Source of the DNA: a virus
IMG/VR virus record: IMGVR_UViG_3300027749_003140
Location: 1-23,960 of that record
Length of the DNA stretch: 23,960 nucleotides
Strand: one strand, 5' to 3'
Notes under the pieces: model-generated
Told to the model about the DNA's origin: nothing
Databases searched by the model: none
Seen by the model: only the letters and a program-made list of their open reading frames with translations
Program-made: the position numbers and the translations under genes
Shown here: in pieces, positions 14,877 through 23,769 of the stretch
Layout of the letters: each line of letters starts with the position of its first letter
Position numbering within the stretch: the stretch's first letter is position 1

Positions 14877-15424
14877 GCCTAAAAGAACTAACCCACGAAG
14901 CACACCGCAGTGCGGAAACACAGCCGTTTGTAAAAATTTTATTTTCAGGTAAAATTAATCCAAAACTATATGCTGCCTACTTAAAAAATCAGCACCCGTG
15001 TTACGAGATTTTAGAAGTGTGCGCAATGCCCCATGGGTTATTAGCAGGACTCCCTGACATGCGTAGAGCTCCATCAATATTAGCAGACTATTTAGAACTG
15101 CATAAAGAAGGCGACTTGGAACCGACAATTCTGCCGGCAACTGATCGGTATCTCAAATACATTCTAAGTATCAAAGATGATCCTAAGCGTTTAATGGCAC
15201 ACTTATATGTACGACATATGGGAGATCTTGCCGGCGGGCAAATGATTGCCAAACGTATTCCAGGATCTGGAAAAATGTATCAATTTGCTGATCCTGATAC
15301 TCTTAAAACAGCAATCCGTGAACGGTTAGATGACAGCATGGCTGACGAGGCAAAGGTATGTTTTAAGTATGCCGAGGAAATGTTCAAAGATATGATGACA
15401 CTAGTAGAGTATGTTGATGAGTAA
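14873..15424 (+). CDS. Heme oxygenase
   Basis: A 183-aa biliverdin-forming heme oxygenase. The proximal heme ligand is His 11 in LTHEAHRSAE. The distal helix carries the glycine-rich VRHMGDLAGGQMIAKR, equivalent to YLGDLSGGQ in human HO-1. Length is slightly below cyanobacterial Ho1. It opens heme to biliverdin, CO and iron, using reduced ferredoxin in bacteria. It starts in ATGA with clpS and overlaps the bilin reductase by 8 bases, the arrangement of the ho1-bilin reductase operons found in cyanophages and in some uncultured marine phages. The iron released could feed the phage IscU/IscA system; that link is inference. Confidence 0.93.
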   Translation: MSLKELTHEAHRSAETQPFVKILFSGKINPKLYAAYLKNQHPCYEILEVCAMPHGLLAGLPDMRRAPSILADYLELHKEGDLEPTILPATDRYLKYILSIKDDPKRLMAHLYVRHMGDLAGGQMIAKRIPGSGKMYQFADPDTLKTAIRERLDDSMADEAKVCFKYAEEMFKDMMTLVEYVDE

Positions 15425-16097
15425 TGTTTGGGATACATTACAGGGTATTGCAACCTATTTTGAAATGGCTTTTGAGAGAACTGGAAATCCCGTTGAAGAA
15501 CCGGGCATGGAACGATTTAATCAACCAGGATGGGTTAATCGTGTGTATACTAGTAATTTATATAGACGTGCCCACATTGATATTGTCGATGCTAGGGACT
15601 CAAAGGGATTATGGATGATGCACTGTTGCATCTTCCCCCACACTCACAACCCTGCCCCTATTTTTGGATTCGATGTAATAGCCGGTAAGAGTAAGATCAC
15701 TGGCTGTTTCTACGATTACAGTGCCGCTGGCGACAACGAACATCCTATGCTTGAATGGTTTGCCGGGGAAGCTAATCGTTTAGATTGGAATAAAACACGC
15801 AAGCTACCCGATTGGGCTGAACGTATTTTTAGTCCAAGTATGATTGCAGCGGGCAATGTTAGCGATGAAAATGAATTGGCACAGATTTTTGCTATGGCTA
15901 AAAAGGGTGTAGATCACTATCTCAACGCCGTTGGTGAAACTAATAATACGGCATCAAGCACTAAAGATGCACAGAACTACTACTGTGAAAATCAAAAGCA
16001 AAACCCACATACACCCAAAGTTATGGTTAGTTTAGGGCTAAGTGAGGAAGATGTGCAGATTTTCATTCAGGATTGTTTGTTTCCCGAAATCCGCTAA
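15417..16097 (+). CDS. Ferredoxin-dependent bilin reductase (PcyX/PcyA-like)
   Basis: A 226-aa bilin reductase. ATG 15417 is preferred; 15411 is in frame. The core MHCCIFPHTHNPAPIFGFDV contains H69 and D86, 17 residues apart as in PcyA His88/Asp105, the proton-donating pair. The C-terminal YYCENQKQNPHTPKVMVSLG and IFIQDCLFPEI match the family end (QxxN..T, lFp). PcyA Glu76 has no obvious counterpart; Asp residues lie in HIDIVDAR. The family reduces biliverdin to phycobilins with ferredoxin. The short N-terminus and coupling to heme oxygenase resemble the PcyX group from uncultured phages rather than cyanophage PebS. Product and host use are unknown; no phytochrome or phycobiliprotein gene is present here. 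Confidence 0.87.
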   Translation: MSNVWDTLQGIATYFEMAFERTGNPVEEPGMERFNQPGWVNRVYTSNLYRRAHIDIVDARDSKGLWMMHCCIFPHTHNPAPIFGFDVIAGKSKITGCFYDYSAAGDNEHPMLEWFAGEANRLDWNKTRKLPDWAERIFSPSMIAAGNVSDENELAQIFAMAKKGVDHYLNAVGETNNTASSTKDAQNYYCENQKQNPHTPKVMVSLGLSEEDVQIFIQDCLFPEIR

Positions 16098-17962: not shown

Positions 17963-17978
17963 ATAGTATAAATACTAT
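17963..17978 (+). promoter_or_regulatory. Late promoter TATAAATA in a 7-bp perfect dyad
   Basis: TATAAATA at 17967-17974 is the centre of ATAGTAT, AA, ATACTAT. Expected start at 17980 is exactly the A of the next ATG, so the mRNA would be leaderless. It heads the uptake/racemase cassette. Confidence 0.65.
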
Positions 17979-17979
17979 T

Positions 17980-18819
17980 ATGAAAAAACTATTAATAACC
18001 CTCTTGGTCTTGTTCTCGTCAGTTGTGTACGCACAATTACCCACTTCAACAATATCACTTCCGTCTGACATTGCTGCAATCAAGAAGAAAAACGTCTTGA
18101 TCATTGCAATGACCAAAAAAGATGTACCTCCATTCTTCTCAGGTGAAGGCGACGACATTCGAGGACTTGACGTTGAAATTGCACGCCGCATTGGTGTAAT
18201 TGTCGGAGTCCCTGTGCAGTTTAGACGAGATGCAGACAGTTTTGCCGAAGTTGTAGAACAGGTTCGTGACGGTCGTGCAGATCTTGCTGTGAGCAAACTG
18301 TCTGTAACTGGACCGCGTTTACAAGTTGTTAGATTTAGTGATCCCTACATCAAACTCAAACAAGCAATGATTATTAACCGTCTTTGGCTAAGTCAAAACT
18401 CACAAGGACGAGAAGTGTATGAAGTGATAAGAACGTTTAACGGAAAGATATCTTTTGTACGTAATTCAAGCTATGATACATTTGCCCGTGCCAATTTCCC
18501 CAAAGCTGTGTATACTCCCGAAGATAGTTGGGACACAATCATCAACAATGTAACCAGCGGTGCAATTGCAGCTGGATATAGAGATGAATTTGAAATTAAG
18601 AAAATTTCATTTGAAAAGCCTGAAGCAGCAATCACTACCAAAACAGTGACCATATCAGACAGCATAGACAACATTGCTGTGGCAGCAAATGTTAACGCAA
18701 CACAACTACTCAGCATAGTTAACTATGTTATTAGAACTGAATACAACAACATTGACACTAAAAGGTTAATGGACCGATACAAGGCTGAGACAAAGACAGC
18801 AACACCTGTAAAGAAATAA
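17980..18819 (+). CDS. Periplasmic amino-acid-binding protein (SBP family 3)
   Basis: A 279-aa periplasmic solute-binding protein. Signal peptide MKKLLITLLVLFSSVVYA, cleavage before QL. Family 3 landmarks follow: VPPFF and RGLDVEIARRIG in lobe 1, VQFRRDADSFAEVVEQVRDG, RADLAVSKLSVTGPRLQVVRF and SDPYIKLKQAMI. The Asp of RADLA and Arg of GPRLQ are the usual amino-acid-carboxylate contacts. Such proteins normally feed an ABC permease, but none is present; instead an SDF-type symporter follows after 12 bases. It may scavenge an acidic or polar amino acid, or act as sensor or decoy. No Shine-Dalgarno; leaderless start predicted. Confidence 0.85.
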   Translation: MKKLLITLLVLFSSVVYAQLPTSTISLPSDIAAIKKKNVLIIAMTKKDVPPFFSGEGDDIRGLDVEIARRIGVIVGVPVQFRRDADSFAEVVEQVRDGRADLAVSKLSVTGPRLQVVRFSDPYIKLKQAMIINRLWLSQNSQGREVYEVIRTFNGKISFVRNSSYDTFARANFPKAVYTPEDSWDTIINNVTSGAIAAGYRDEFEIKKISFEKPEAAITTKTVTISDSIDNIAVAANVNATQLLSIVNYVIRTEYNNIDTKRLMDRYKAETKTATPVKK

Positions 18820-18831
18820 TTAGGAAACATC

Positions 18832-20118
18832 ATGAGCTTTAATTTAAAATCATTTCTCTCTAGTCCCTGGACCATTTTAGGGTCAATCATAATTGGAGTG
18901 TTGGCAGGAGTATATGCACCTGCGGCCAGCATGAACTTTGAAAGTGTTGGAGGGATTTACATCAGCTTGCTTAAAGTGGTTGTGATACCTTTCTTGTTAG
19001 CTACTATTTTGGTTGGTGTTATCAGTCTACTGCAAAAAGAAGGCAGTGCCTCAATGATACGCAAAATTATTATTGGCTTTGTTGCCAGTATGTTCCTTGC
19101 GGCAGTTATTGGTGTTGGCACTGTTGCACTGACTGGCAGCGAAATGACTCCTGCAAAACAAGCACAACTTGGTGCAATTGTCAACGACAAAGAATCTGGC
19201 AGTGATCTTAATATCACGCTAAAAGAACCAATGCCTGTTACGCCGCACGTTGATCCAATGCAGATGGCGCAGAAGTTTATTCCAGAAAATATCTTTAACA
19301 CACTGGCTGCTGGTGAAAGTTTGAAAATTGTTATCTTCTGTTTGATATTTGGTGTTGCTCTGGGCAATATCAAAAGTACAGGTCAAGAAATGCTGGTTGA
19401 TGTATTAAAAAGTGTTCAGCAGGCCAGTATCAGTATTTTCAAGTTCTTAAACTACTTTCTACCGTTTGCATTGTTAGCAATGATCAGTAGTCAGGTTGGT
19501 AAAGTTGGTGTTGGCATTTTCTTGACCATGGTTGAATTTATCATGCAACAGGCTATCGGTGGATTACTGGTTATCATCGCCGGTACTATTGTTATTTGGC
19601 AACGTTCAGGGCTCAGCCTAATGACTGTTATTAAAGAAACTAAAGAAACGCTGATTGTTGCTGTTAGTTCACGTAGCAGTTTAGCCTGTATTCCATACGC
19701 ACAAGAAGCACTGCACAAATTAAAATTTGATAGAAATGGTGTAGAGCTAACTGTGCCACTAAGTTTCACAGTTAACCGCATCGGAAGTATTGTTTATTAC
19801 GCAATTGCCACAGTGTTTATTGCCAACATATACGGTGCACCTATGGGAGTAACTGGTTTGTTGGTTGTGTTATTTGGTAGTATCTTAGCTGGGTTAGCGT
19901 CAGCAGGTACAACAGGTATTCTCACAGTTGCCACTGTGGCAGTTGTTTGTGACTTGTTAAAACTTCCAAGCGAAGCTGTATTAGTATTGTTAATCGCTGT
20001 TGATCCACTAATGGATATGATTCGTACTGCAAGCCATGTACACGGGAATGTAGCAGTGACAGCATTCGTATGTGACAAGGAAGTAGACGATGGACAAACT
20101 GAAAGAGCTACTGCTTGA
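18832..20118 (+). CDS. SDF-family (glutamate/dicarboxylate) symporter with altered cation sites
   Basis: A 428-aa membrane transporter of the DAACS/SDF family. Hairpin HP1 has R281-S-S-LACIP, TM7 has NRIGS (315-319) where the family has NMDGT, HP2 has LASAGTTG, and TM8 has D391, D395, R398, T399, then H402 and N406. Arg398 equals GltPh Arg397, which binds the side-chain carboxylate of aspartate, so an acidic substrate is plausible. Residues equal to GltPh Asp312 and Asp405, both sodium ligands, are Ile317 and Asn406, and Asn401 is His. Coupling to sodium is therefore doubtful. AGGAAA ribosome site; overlaps the next gene by 29 bases. Confidence 0.9.
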   Translation: MSFNLKSFLSSPWTILGSIIIGVLAGVYAPAASMNFESVGGIYISLLKVVVIPFLLATILVGVISLLQKEGSASMIRKIIIGFVASMFLAAVIGVGTVALTGSEMTPAKQAQLGAIVNDKESGSDLNITLKEPMPVTPHVDPMQMAQKFIPENIFNTLAAGESLKIVIFCLIFGVALGNIKSTGQEMLVDVLKSVQQASISIFKFLNYFLPFALLAMISSQVGKVGVGIFLTMVEFIMQQAIGGLLVIIAGTIVIWQRSGLSLMTVIKETKETLIVAVSSRSSLACIPYAQEALHKLKFDRNGVELTVPLSFTVNRIGSIVYYAIATVFIANIYGAPMGVTGLLVVLFGSILAGLASAGTTGILTVATVAVVCDLLKLPSEAVLVLLIAVDPLMDMIRTASHVHGNVAVTAFVCDKEVDDGQTERATA

Positions 20119-20695
20119 ACTGTTAAAGTTCATAGGCGAAAGTCCGTTTAGACTGTTCACCGTTATCCTACTTTGCTTTTTGGGATTCGGAGGATGGATA
20201 GTCTACAGTGAAAAAGATGCCTTTATGGCAAGTTATCGTGCCCAACAGGCCATGCCAAAAATGAATGGCAAGTATGAAGAAGCGGTAAACTTTATATTAA
20301 AAAATACAGATGCTGAGTTAGTTGCAGTGTTTAACGTTAATACATTATTAAACACAAGAAAATTAGTATATCTAACTACACGTGGTGCTGGTCACGACAA
20401 GGCGCATGACGGAACCGATGTGGGATTACTCACCAAGAATCACAGCAACAATGAAGATGTAATTGGCCTAATGTCGGGTAAAATTCCATGTGGTCCATAT
20501 CTAACACCACAAAGTTATATTGGATTCACTTATAAAGATGCAGGGGTAAAATACATGTGTCGTATAAGTGTTCCAGCTGAACCTGGATTATTCATTGGAC
20601 AAATAAGTGTGGGATGGAAGGAACAACCGTCAGAAGTAGAGTTGGCACAGACTGTGTTAATTGTGGCATCAAGTTTACTGTTTGATAAAAAATGA
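20090..20695 (+). CDS. Single-pass membrane protein with extracytoplasmic or sensory domain
   Basis: A 201-aa protein starting inside the transporter gene. Residues 1-18 are amphipathic, 20-40 form one membrane helix (LFTVILLCFLGFGGWIVY), and the rest is a soluble alpha/beta domain: EEAVNFILKNTDAELVAVFN, LNTRKLVYLTTRGAGHDK, SGKIPCGPYLTPQSYIGF and KYMCRISVPAEPGLFIGQIS. The order (helix, AELVAVFNVN strand, later GxI.vGW strand) is reminiscent of a GAF/PAS-like sensor, but I cannot assign a family. Two cysteines could pair. Its stop overlaps the 20-aa peptide by ATGA. It may partner the transporter. Confidence 0.7.
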   Translation: MDKLKELLLELLKFIGESPFRLFTVILLCFLGFGGWIVYSEKDAFMASYRAQQAMPKMNGKYEEAVNFILKNTDAELVAVFNVNTLLNTRKLVYLTTRGAGHDKAHDGTDVGLLTKNHSNNEDVIGLMSGKIPCGPYLTPQSYIGFTYKDAGVKYMCRISVPAEPGLFIGQISVGWKEQPSEVELAQTVLIVASSLLFDKK

Positions 20696-20754
20696 GACTC
20701 CCTAGCGTGATAGCTGTTGGTATTCTAATAATCATCATATTGGTGTTATTATGA
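20692..20754 (+). CDS. 20-aa hydrophobic membrane peptide
   Basis: The frame starts in ATGA with the upstream stop and ends in ATGA with the racemase start, filling the gap exactly. The peptide is MRLPSVIAVGILIIIILVLL: a basic start and one transmembrane helix. Double ATGA coupling in an otherwise unexplained 55-base gap supports a real gene. It could be a membrane micropeptide acting on the neighbouring transporter. Too short for family recognition. Confidence 0.6.
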   Translation: MRLPSVIAVGILIIIILVLL

Positions 20755-21455
20755 TCAAGCGACTTGGTGTACTGGGTGGAATGGGGCCTGCTGCTAGTGC
20801 TGAGTTTATGGTACGTTTGATTGCTCAGACTCCTGCAAAAACTGATCAAGACCATATCCCCACAATACTATGGAGCGACAACACAGTTCCGGACCGTAGC
20901 ACCAGTATGCGTAACGGTGACAACAAACCATTACCTTACCTGTTGCAGGGTATACAGGGATTAGTGTCGGCAGGTTGTAATCTAATTGTTATACCCTGCA
21001 ACACTGCACATCTTTGGTTCAATGAAATGGAAAAACAAGCATCGTGGCATGCAAGAATTGTACACATTGTTGACAGTGTCGCAGATGCACTACGAGATGT
21101 AAACGTAGTCAATTCTAAAATTGGAGTCATGGGCACACAGGCAACCGTTGAGTTGGGGTTGTATCAGTATCGTTTAAACAAACTAGGATGGGATTGTATT
21201 GTGCCTAGTAAAGAAGAAATGGATACACTGGTACAACCAGCAATTGATTTAATCAAGGCTAATCAAATTGACGCTGCACACCCAATGTTAATGACTGTTA
21301 TTCACAGTCTTATTGGCAGAGGAGCAACAGCAGTGGTACTGGGATGTACTGAAATACCACTGAGTGTGAGAGAAGACTCAGTACAGGATACACCAATAAT
21401 AAATAGCATTGACAGTTTGGTCAAGAGTGCTATAAAACAATTCAAAAGGAATTAA
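20751..21455 (+). CDS. Aspartate/glutamate racemase family protein
   Basis: A 234-aa cofactor-independent racemase of the Asp/Glu/hydantoin family. N-terminal GVLGGMGPAASAEFM is the phosphate/carboxylate loop typical of aspartate racemases; catalytic cysteines are C83 in IPCNTAH and C199 in VLGCTEIP, both present. Length fits the family (about 230). It would interconvert L- and D-aspartate or glutamate. The GGMGP...T motif favours aspartate or broad-specificity enzymes over MurI. In this cassette it lies behind an amino-acid-binding protein and an acidic-amino-acid-type transporter, suggesting one pathway. Start is coupled to the 20-aa peptide. Confidence 0.9.
   Translation: MIKRLGVLGGMGPAASAEFMVRLIAQTPAKTDQDHIPTILWSDNTVPDRSTSMRNGDNKPLPYLLQGIQGLVSAGCNLIVIPCNTAHLWFNEMEKQASWHARIVHIVDSVADALRDVNVVNSKIGVMGTQATVELGLYQYRLNKLGWDCIVPSKEEMDTLVQPAIDLIKANQIDAAHPMLMTVIHSLIGRGATAVVLGCTEIPLSVREDSVQDTPIINSIDSLVKSAIKQFKRN
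21409..21436 (+). promoter_or_regulatory. Possible sigma-70 promoter, TTGACA-16-TATAAA
   Basis: TTGACA at 21409-21414 and TATAAA at 21431-21436 in the 3' end of the racemase gene, spacer 16. Expected start about 21443, before the AAAGGA site of the small secreted protein. An AATAAATA motif lies at 21398-21405. Coding constraint makes this uncertain. Confidence 0.4.
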
Positions 21456-21456
21456 C

Positions 21457-21600
21457 ATGAAACTAACATCGTTTATATTTGTCACAGCAGTGTTCGCATC
21501 AGCCTGTGCGTCAGCCTGGACACCCAGTGCAGCAGAAGTTGCATTAAGTGCAAAGGAAGATGCAAGAGAACTTGCATTGTTTAAGCTACTGACCAAGTAG
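21457..21600 (+). CDS. Small secreted peptide (47 aa)
   Basis: A 47-aa exported peptide missed by longer-ORF searches. Signal peptide MKLTSFIFVTAVFASACASA with cleavage before WT, leaving about 27 residues: WTPSAAEVALSAKEDARELA and a short FKLLTK end, an amphipathic helix. SACA could also resemble a lipobox (ASAC). AAAGGA ribosome site. It sits one base after the racemase stop and one base before the amidotransferase-like gene. The mature helix could act in the periplasm or on a membrane; function unknown. Confidence 0.68.
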   Translation: MKLTSFIFVTAVFASACASAWTPSAAEVALSAKEDARELALFKLLTK

Positions 21601-21601
21601 T

Positions 21602-22249
21602 ATGAAACCCACCATTGCACTGTTCTTACACCAGCCCATGTGTAGTACACAGTCAGGCAATGGCATCATGCAGTCACTAAGCACGGATTACAATTTTAAA
21701 ATCTTCACCAAGCACGAGTTAGAAGACGGCTTTTTTGATGATGTCGACATGGTTGCATTTCCAGGTGGTTTTGGCAACTCGGACGCATACGATTACTTGC
21801 TGAGAAACAGTGCAGACCTAGTTAGAGAGTTTGTGCAAACAGGTGGCCGGTACCTTGGCATATGCATGGGTGCATATTGGGCCGGCAGCTATTACTTGAA
21901 TCTATTAGATGATGTGGATGCTGTACAGTATTACAAACAGCCCACAGCAGACACTCGCAGGCCACACACCAAAGCTATTTCAGTATCATGGAACGGCAAA
22001 CCTGACAAAATGTTCTTCAACGATGGATGTGCATTGGTAGGTGACACATCAAAGTTTGCCACAGTTGCTACCTATGCCAACGGAGATGCCATGGCCGTTA
22101 TACAGGGCAGAATAGGGTTGATTGGATGCCATCCAGAAAGTCAAAAATTCTGGTATGACAGTTATAAACAAATGACAGGGCACTGGCATGAAAGGCGTCA
22201 TAACACATTGCTGCTAGAGTTTGTCAACAAGTTAATGGAGCAACCATGA
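21602..22249 (+). CDS. Class I glutamine amidotransferase-like protein (BPL_N type)
   Basis: A 215-aa protein of the type found as the N-terminal domain of eukaryotic biotin-protein ligases. The fold markers are MVAFPGGFGNSDAYD, the nucleophile elbow GGRYLGICMGAYWAG with C88, and GLIGCHPESQKFWY with H177 and E179, completing a Cys-His-Glu triad. It lacks any ligase domain, so it is a free-standing enzyme. It may hydrolyse glutamine or another amide, or handle a small peptide. Next to an Asp/Glu racemase, chemistry on glutamate, aspartate or their amides is plausible but not shown. It overlaps the following small gene by ATGA. Confidence 0.8.
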   Translation: MKPTIALFLHQPMCSTQSGNGIMQSLSTDYNFKIFTKHELEDGFFDDVDMVAFPGGFGNSDAYDYLLRNSADLVREFVQTGGRYLGICMGAYWAGSYYLNLLDDVDAVQYYKQPTADTRRPHTKAISVSWNGKPDKMFFNDGCALVGDTSKFATVATYANGDAMAVIQGRIGLIGCHPESQKFWYDSYKQMTGHWHERRHNTLLLEFVNKLMEQP

Positions 22250-22410
22250 CTGACAATGTTATTAAAACGCTACAAACAGAATTAGCGCAAGACTTAATTA
22301 AATTTGAACACACTGTTAATAACGATACATTAAGTGAAGAAGATTTAAAATTAATCAGTGAAACGTACCAGACAGTATACCAAACATTACACGAAATAAA
22401 CAATCTGTGA
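22246..22410 (+). CDS. Small acidic helical protein (54 aa)
   Basis: A 54-aa protein starting in ATGA with the amidotransferase-like gene. The sequence (MTDNVIKTLQTELAQDLIKF, TVNNDTLSEEDLKLISETY, TVYQTLHEINNL) is acidic and predicts two or three helices, with no membrane or signal segment. It closes the cassette; the next transcript has its own late-type promoter. It could be an accessory subunit of the preceding enzyme. Family not recognised. Confidence 0.68.
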   Translation: MTDNVIKTLQTELAQDLIKFEHTVNNDTLSEEDLKLISETYQTVYQTLHEINNL

Positions 22411-22476: not shown

Positions 22477-23769
22477 ATGCGTCTTAAAATTTTATTGCCA
22501 GCGTTGATGTTGGTACTATCAAGCACCACTGTCTTATCACAGACATTAATCAATCAGGGTACCTACGACTCAAAAAGCCTGGTTGACACTAATAGTACCA
22601 CTACCAGCACAAGTACTATTAACACCAACAATGTTAATAGTGGCACTGTGACTACTAACAACAATACTGCATTAAGTGGCGGTACAACCAACACTAACAA
22701 CAACATTAATGTTAATAGTGGCACACTGACCAACAACAATAACAATAATAATGTTATGAGCGGGTCTGTGACCTATACAAATAACAATAACAACAACAAC
22801 GTTAATAGTGGTACACAGACATTTAATAATAACAATGTCAACACAGGTACAATGACTAATAACAACAACAATGTCAATACCAGCACAAGTGCAAGTACAA
22901 GCACTAATGTTAATCAAAATAACAATGTCAATACTGGTACAATGACTTACAATAATAACAATGTTAGTACCAGTACGAACAACAACAATAATGTTAATAC
23001 TAGTACCAGTGATAACACCAATAGAAATATCAACACAGGTGATATGACCAATCGTAATATCAACACCAGTACAAGTACCAGTGCTAATACCAACAATAAC
23101 ATTAATACTGGTGATATGACTAACCGTAATATTAACAATAGTACATCTACATCTAACAATACTAATAATAATATCAACAGTGGTACAATGACTAACATTA
23201 ACCAAAATGTGCAAAGTGGTAGTATGACCAACAACAATAACAATACAAACACTAGTACAAGCAACAACGTTAATCAGAACGCCAATATTAATCAAAACGT
23301 CAACAGTGGTGATATGACTAACCGTAATATCAACACCACTGAGATTACTCAACGTGTTATTCAACCTCCTCCTACAGCAGTTGCTCCAGCAATGATGAGT
23401 GGTGGTAATACTGACTTATGTAGCACAGGCACAAGTGGAAGTGTACAAACACAAATCTTTGGTGTAAGCGGTGGCGGCACAGTTCGTGATATGAATTGTG
23501 AACGATTGAAACTATCTAAAACTTTATATGATATGGGTATGAAAGTGGCCGCAGTTGCTACCATGTGTCAAGACCGTCGTGTGTTTGATGCCATGTTGGC
23601 CGCCGGAACTCCTTGCCCTTATGACGGCAAGATTGGTCTACAAGCTAAAGCTGAGTGGGAAGCTAACTTGGATAAAATACCAAAACCTGACGAGGATAAA
23701 ATAGATGACACTTATAAGAAAGTGGGCTTCGGTGCTCTGCTTGGTGCTCTTGTGTTCAAACTATTCTAA
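22477..23769 (+). CDS. Secreted Asn-rich repeat protein
   Basis: A 430-aa exported protein. Signal peptide residues 1-21 (MRLKILLPALMLVLSSTTVL). Residues about 39-290 are almost only Asn, Thr, Ser, Gly, Val and Ile, with eleven copies of a [VI]x[ST]G[TSD]xT core (VNSGTLT, VNTGTMT, INTGDMT and others) separated by Asn runs and TSTS variants every 10-16 residues, a pattern that suits a beta-solenoid or amyloid-like rod. After a Pro linker comes a compact Cys domain (about 311-395; C315, C341, C364, C380; VQTQIFGVSGGGTVRDMNCE) that I recall from environmental phages, and a hydrophobic end GFGALLGALVFKLF. Location is periplasmic or outer surface. Function unknown. Confidence 0.8.
   Translation: MRLKILLPALMLVLSSTTVLSQTLINQGTYDSKSLVDTNSTTTSTSTINTNNVNSGTVTTNNNTALSGGTTNTNNNINVNSGTLTNNNNNNNVMSGSVTYTNNNNNNNVNSGTQTFNNNNVNTGTMTNNNNNVNTSTSASTSTNVNQNNNVNTGTMTYNNNNVSTSTNNNNNVNTSTSDNTNRNINTGDMTNRNINTSTSTSANTNNNINTGDMTNRNINNSTSTSNNTNNNINSGTMTNINQNVQSGSMTNNNNNTNTSTSNNVNQNANINQNVNSGDMTNRNINTTEITQRVIQPPPTAVAPAMMSGGNTDLCSTGTSGSVQTQIFGVSGGGTVRDMNCERLKLSKTLYDMGMKVAAVATMCQDRRVFDAMLAAGTPCPYDGKIGLQAKAEWEANLDKIPKPDEDKIDDTYKKVGFGALLGALVFKLF
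22591..23340 (+). repeat. Low-complexity Asn-codon repeat region
   Basis: AAC/AAT-rich tandem degenerate repeats with recurring GTTAATAGTGG, GTCAATACTGG and GATATGACTAACCGTAATAT blocks. Both Asn codons are mixed, so selection acts on the protein rather than on exact DNA slippage. The complementary strand shows long false frames here. Confidence 0.85.

Follow-up and report, generated by a model that had tools for sequence, protein, structure and literature searches.

What does an amino-acid importer do in a large T4-like phage, and what is the membrane protein encoded directly behind it? The question is raised by positions 17963-22410 of the virus record IMGVR_UViG_3300027749_003140, a stretch of 23,960 bases referred to here as the window, whose gene content is T4-like (nrdB, a baseplate gene, PAAR, an exonuclease, Hsp20, an endolysin and a bilin reductase). 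A preliminary description had read these positions as a single unit of eight genes, with a content for which it knew no precedent among phage operons. The answer favoured here, at a probability of roughly 0.6, is a late phage operon that couples the uptake of acidic amino acids to lysis. The most important part of the cassette is the holin-like gene at 20090, left without a name of its own in that description as a 'membrane factor'; it probably encodes a T4 T-type holin, which would make the locus a late lysis-region operon and not a metabolic cassette alone.

The cassette and its conserved core

All eight ORFs are recovered on the plus strand with the coordinates first reported. Their junctions had been given as ATGA overlaps or spacings of 1-12 bases, which is right for most of them (three ATGA overlaps, two 1-base gaps and one 12-base gap) and wrong for one, the gene of the SDF carrier (18832-20118) and the gene at 20090 overlapping by 29 bases.

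The expected co-occurrence of the families in viral contigs is borne out. With the SDF protein as the query, the order binding protein (SBP), SDF, 20090 homologue is found in 22 loci, wherever the contig extends far enough; with the 20090 protein as the query, 78 loci are obtained. Among phage loci where the SDF gene is complete and the contig continues beyond it, a 20090 homologue comes next in 79 of 79, and SBP and SDF genes lie directly upstream of 45 out of 54 distinct 20090 homologues, an association beyond chance. The other nine stand without them, so that 20090 is independent of the two. The triad is found in dozens of IMG/VR contigs and is kept in divergent phages that have no racemase gene. 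Of the 47 SDF loci whose contig continues far enough, 12 lack the racemase, and the most divergent loci are among these 12. Because 20090 adjoins SDF in every such locus and mostly follows both SBP and SDF, while the other genes come and go, SBP-SDF-20090 is the true unit, with the racemase as an optional member and the last three genes as accessories. The proposed single unit thus stands as one operon, but its constant part is confined to this core, with the racemase and the amidotransferase-like gene outside it. Scattered single genes in homologous phages are ruled out by the 79 of 79 loci, and an assembly chimera or host DNA by the dozens of independent contigs; related contigs of up to 345-353 kb mark the cassette as phage DNA.

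The SDF gene is under very strong purifying selection (dN/dS about 0.02-0.07), and values are 0.06-0.09 for 20090, 0.08-0.14 for SBP and 0.10-0.21 for the racemase. The minor genes are less constant. An ORF for a membrane peptide of 20 amino acids (20692-20754), which shares ATGA overlaps with both neighbours and begins MRLPxVI, recurs at the same place in 18 of 47 loci. The three genes at the end of the cassette are occasional in relatives and lie outside the conserved unit. The 47-residue exported or lipoprotein-like peptide (21457-21600) is found in some relatives at varying positions, between SBP and SDF in one locus (L047) and after the holin in another (L082). The protein encoded at 21602-22249, described at first as an amidotransferase-like enzyme, does match the class-I family (GATase, E 3e-4), its strongest match being BPL_N (PF09825, E 2e-10); its GICMGA cysteine and HPE motif are read from the sequence, no solved relative was found, and only a few relatives have the gene, in part at a place outside the cassette. 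Finally, the helical protein of 54 residues (22246-22410), an ORF with an ATGA overlap, has a homologue in place solely in two loci (L006 and L067).

The transcript of this unit is predicted to be late. An exact match to TATAAATA, the T4-type late-promoter box, lies on the plus strand at 17967-17974, 13 nt before the SBP start. Of 43 related loci, 34 carry the motif [TC]ATAAATA in the 65 nt that precede SBP, against 0.33 expected; as the loci are related, this count is evidence of conservation and does not represent 43 independent trials. The window has its other copy at 1844, ahead of the baseplate gene that starts at 2097.

The putative importer and the racemase

The gene at 17980-18819 encodes an exported periplasmic amino-acid-binding protein (SBP_bac_3, PF00497, E 6e-16), with a signal peptide read from the sequence. 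Its residues Arg113 and Asp202 are invariant across 16 divergent phage homologues; from HisJ-type proteins they are presumed to hold the carboxylate and the amino group of the amino acid. The carrier is of the SDF/DAACS family (PF00375, E 4e-65, 220.8 bits for a cutoff of 27.9) and belongs to a GltPh-like, SBP-linked subfamily. With GltPh/GltTk, GltP and DctA it shares the fold family and the Arg/Asp/Arg/Thr set of the substrate site, R281, D395, R398 and T399 being invariant and equivalent to GltPh R276, D394, R397 and T398. It differs from these carriers by its linked binding protein and by the replacement of the residues corresponding to GltPh M311, D312, N401 and D405. The sodium-coupling motif NMDGT and Asp405 are absent from all 16 phage sequences, in which the motif reads NR(I/V/L)GS and Asp405 is Asn; Asn401 is replaced by His.

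The altered motif has bacterial counterparts. In bacterial SDF relatives with the same TM7 arginine, an SBP gene lies directly upstream in nine of nine loci having upstream sequence, whereas classical SDF genes from the same search have none there. The operon annotated in Gemmobacter aquarius, on a plasmid, consists of SBP, SDF, racemase and a second SDF; SBP-SDF-racemase operons are also found in Cupriavidus (sp. P-10) and Paraburkholderia, there inside type VI secretion clusters, unlike the phage cassette. These operons have the same families, the same order and the altered TM7 motif, but they lack a holin, usually carry a second SDF and are about 30-46% identical to the phage proteins. The content of the cassette thus has bacterial precedents. 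In the tree, the phage SDFs group together in a single clade (support 98/99), inside which a single gene from a Burkholderiales MAG is nested. Since bacteria possess related operons with no holin, the importer was probably recruited by phages once. Matches to the SDF protein in cultured phages are mostly bacterial contigs filed as phages.

We infer that SBP and SDF work as a single importer, for which aspartate, glutamate, cysteate or their D-forms may be the substrate. A review of secondary transporters that depend on binding proteins lists TRAP and TTT only (PMC5812351), so that the pair, if its members do work together, would be a third kind and would bring binding-protein dependence into the family of glutamate transporters. 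TRAP and TTT likewise combine a binding protein with a secondary carrier, but their membrane parts are unrelated to the phage carrier by Pfam family: its membrane component matches PF00375 only, with no DctQM or TctAB subunit among the Pfam matches.

The fifth gene (20751-21455) encodes a PLP-independent amino-acid racemase of Asp/Glu/cysteate type (PF01177, E 2e-38), whose catalytic cysteine motifs CNTA and GCTE are present in 63 of 63 phage homologues. Pfam thus upholds the first naming of this gene as well as those of SBP and SDF. Among NCBIfam models the racemase scores 222 bits for CuyB (cutoff 190) and 160 bits for asp_race. The CuyB score is not discriminating: a Salmonella racemase annotated as acting on aspartate also passes (227), so cysteate was dropped as a settled substrate and aspartate, glutamate and cysteate are all candidates. 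The slot behind the holin is occupied in some relatives by a D-amino-acid dehydrogenase-like gene, which with 434 bits for PRK12409 narrowly misses the cutoff of 494.

The first alternative to a lysis-coupled operon is a plain auxiliary metabolic cassette, that is, bacterial amino-acid scavenging genes that by chance are transcribed late together with a membrane gene to which they are unrelated. The bacterial operons with the same SBP-SDF-racemase order speak for it, as do the catalytic and ligand residues, all intact, and the optional racemase or dehydrogenase-like gene downstream. It is nevertheless a doubtful reading, if a possible one, considering that distant phages keep SBP-SDF-holin with no racemase, that not one SDF gene is found away from an adjoining holin gene (79/79), and that the promoter is late and not early.

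A holin T-like protein behind the carrier

The protein of 201 residues encoded at 20090-20695 has no Pfam, NCBIfam or PDB-chain match by sequence. Its assignment relies first on AlphaFold models. In a model built with 16 close homologues (pLDDT 70.8), a Foldseek search of the PDB places the periplasmic domain of T4 holin T at ranks 1-3; with 37 diverse homologues (pLDDT 88.7), T4 holin T stands at ranks 2-4, behind an artificial GAF fusion, and matches in a viral library include T4-type holins. The T4 entries among the top matches are 6psk, 6px4 and 6pxe, with target TM values of 0.58-0.69. The match is one of fold, at 12% identity and a TM of about 0.5-0.7, and the scores of other GAF domains are close behind. 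When the profile of the protein is compared by hhalign with aligned holins of T4, T5 and their relatives, the E-value is 4e-6 over 174-187 columns.

The modelled layout comprises a helix at residues 2-16, amphipathic by its hydrophobic moment, a helix at 19-53 that forms one transmembrane/bridge helix, and a periplasmic GAF-like globular domain, in which C134 and C157 are invariant among 37 sequences. In the literature this layout is regarded as peculiar to T4 T, whose pore is formed by the amphipathic helix at the N terminus; antiholins regulate T through its globular domain, and a periplasmic disulfide is important (PMC12162936). The phage protein thus has in common with the T/RI system the amphipathic helix, the single transmembrane/bridge helix, the GAF-like domain and the cysteine pair, and with T itself, as predicted from the late box, T4-type late expression. 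It differs from T in being only about 12% identical and outside PF11031 (Phage_holin_T), which none of 19 homologues matches. Moreover, T4 t lies near rI and tail-fibre genes, whereas 20090 stands behind an amino-acid importer and no RI gene is recognised in the triad.

Gene neighbourhoods bring further support. A paralogous holin-like family, about 28% identical to 20090 and represented by 49 loci, adjoins small exported two-cysteine proteins, with GH19 or GH24 endolysins in several contigs. Each of two loci (L007 and L015) holds, contiguously, the triad, the racemase, a paralogous holin, a two-cysteine protein and a GH19 enzyme; in another locus (L038), a GH19 endolysin directly follows 20090. 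In the window itself the endolysin is 13 kb away, and an endolysin lies within 7 kb of the gene in just 12 of 63 loci. In addition, all 15 related records, the largest of 525 kb, contain a 20090 homologue, and none has a PF11031 holin at E 0.1. In its size, its export and its pair of cysteines, the small protein next to the paralogous holins is like T4 RI, a likeness that was not established as homology.

The fold, the layout, the hhalign result, the cysteine pair, the amphipathic helix, the lysis-gene neighbourhoods and the absence of PF11031 holins together argue that 20090 is probably a distant relative of T4 holin T, and as such it would form holes. The main doubt concerns a membrane-anchored GAF-type sensor, since numerous GAF domains come close to T4 T in their match to the model and PF11031 is not matched. 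We consider this reading rather unlikely, as the amphipathic N helix and the single transmembrane and bridge helix are exactly T4 T-like, the paralogues sit in lysis-gene neighbourhoods, hhalign connects the protein to the T4 and T5 holins, and it carries no effector domain.

Amino-acid uptake and the moment of lysis

Under the favoured reading of a late operon coupling uptake to lysis, a T4-type late promoter would yield one message for SBP, SDF, the T-type holin and the optional racemase. SBP would capture an amino acid of the aspartate, glutamate or cysteate type and pass it to the SDF carrier, and the racemase, or the D-amino-acid dehydrogenase-like enzyme of some relatives, would make the imported stereoisomer usable. 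Uptake would feed the late phase and the holin would end it, later opening the membrane for the endolysin; the GAF-like domain would correspond to the part of T4 T by which the antiholin holds T back. Uptake and lysis would then be connected functionally, through the feeding of a prolonged late phase, beyond mere co-transcription.

In T4, the antiholin RI binds T, and a more direct coupling can be conceived on this pattern, a nutrient-sensing lysis timer in which SBP, in its loaded or its empty state, attaches to the holin's periplasmic domain, lysis is delayed or triggered by an amino acid outside the cell, and SDF clears or reports the ligand. It is the gene company that makes this version attractive: a domain homologous to the antiholin-binding domain of T is encoded in one operon with a periplasmic ligand-binding protein, and the paralogous holin-like genes precede instead a small exported two-cysteine protein, as RI serves T. 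Control of sensor domains by binding proteins is a known principle, but neighbouring SBP and sensor genes frequently encode partners that do not interact (PMC11113362). SBP and holin distances do correlate after removal of the SDF contribution (partial Mantel r 0.32, p 0.0005). However, the correlation is equal for the cytoplasmic/transmembrane and the periplasmic parts of the holin, so it is not specific to an interface and is no proof of SBP-holin co-evolution, which was discarded as a direct argument. Furthermore, the holin occurs without SBP in nine loci, and its alleles have been exchanged independently of SDF and the racemase (in L002, dS is saturated against 0.38). A sensing timer is hence unlikely. 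Its fuller form is likewise unlikely; there, a metabolite outside the cell would gate the lysis clock, SBP would read the level of the amino acid and hold or release the holin, SDF and the racemase would reset the signal, and the importer would be the third kind beside TRAP and TTT.

Cell-wall editing, in which the racemase would make D-Asp, D-Glu or the like and SDF would move the product for insertion into peptidoglycan, tuning lysis or blocking superinfection, draws on the D-amino-acid enzymes recurring in the slot and on the type VI secretion clusters of Cupriavidus and Paraburkholderia, but it is improbable given divergent core loci with no racemase, an SBP that speaks for uptake and a cassette with no transpeptidase.

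Phage lysis timing responds to superinfection, as in T4 lysis inhibition. To our knowledge, no phage lysis operon is built around a nutrient transporter, and a literature search found none. The SBP-SDF-holin unit under a late promoter suggests that these phages link the uptake or the sensing of a nutrient to the moment of burst. If so, amino acids in the environment would determine when cells burst in a widespread group of large T4-like phages, whose sample identifiers, as we read them, point to lakes.

Variation at and within the triad

Between the window (18832-21455) and the related locus L002, the holin T-like allele of the triad (SBP, SDF and the holin T-like gene) is much more diverged than the SDF and racemase genes flanking it, a contrast that suggests that recombination has taken place there. 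Two triad copies, non-identical and oppositely oriented, lie on a single IMG/VR contig of 524,565 bases (loci L011 and L022); a jumbo phage may carry the triad twice, or the assembly may have fused separate sequences.

Genes accompanying the triad and the paralogous holin-like gene

The paralogous holin-like gene is immediately followed on its 3′ side by a small exported protein with two invariant cysteines in L168 (4646-4990), L025 (8588-8821) and relatives; these small proteins are candidate RI-like antiholins. The phage genome also carries a ferredoxin-dependent bilin reductase gene (15411-16097; Fe_bilin_red, 2e-14). Several relatives (L006, L009, L040, L075 and L079) conserve this gene, with the triad downstream of it. 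An exported protein of 430 aa (22477-23769) with long Asn/Thr/Ser-rich repeats (NNNNVNTGTMT...), for which no Pfam family matched, is likewise kept in relatives, its position relative to the triad shifting.

Bacterial relatives

A Burkholderiales MAG contig (L108) has an SBP–SDF pair without the holin; its SBP and SDF are 61 and 66% identical to the phage pair and fall inside the phage clade. Phage-to-host transfer is possible, and the contig may hint at the phage host. On Cupriavidus and Paraburkholderia megaplasmids, SBP–SDF–racemase–SDF2 operons (L165, L166 and L167) are flanked by VgrG on one side and by T6SS_VasE/TssK or ClpB-type genes on the other; on these replicons the importer-racemase unit therefore belongs to type VI secretion clusters.
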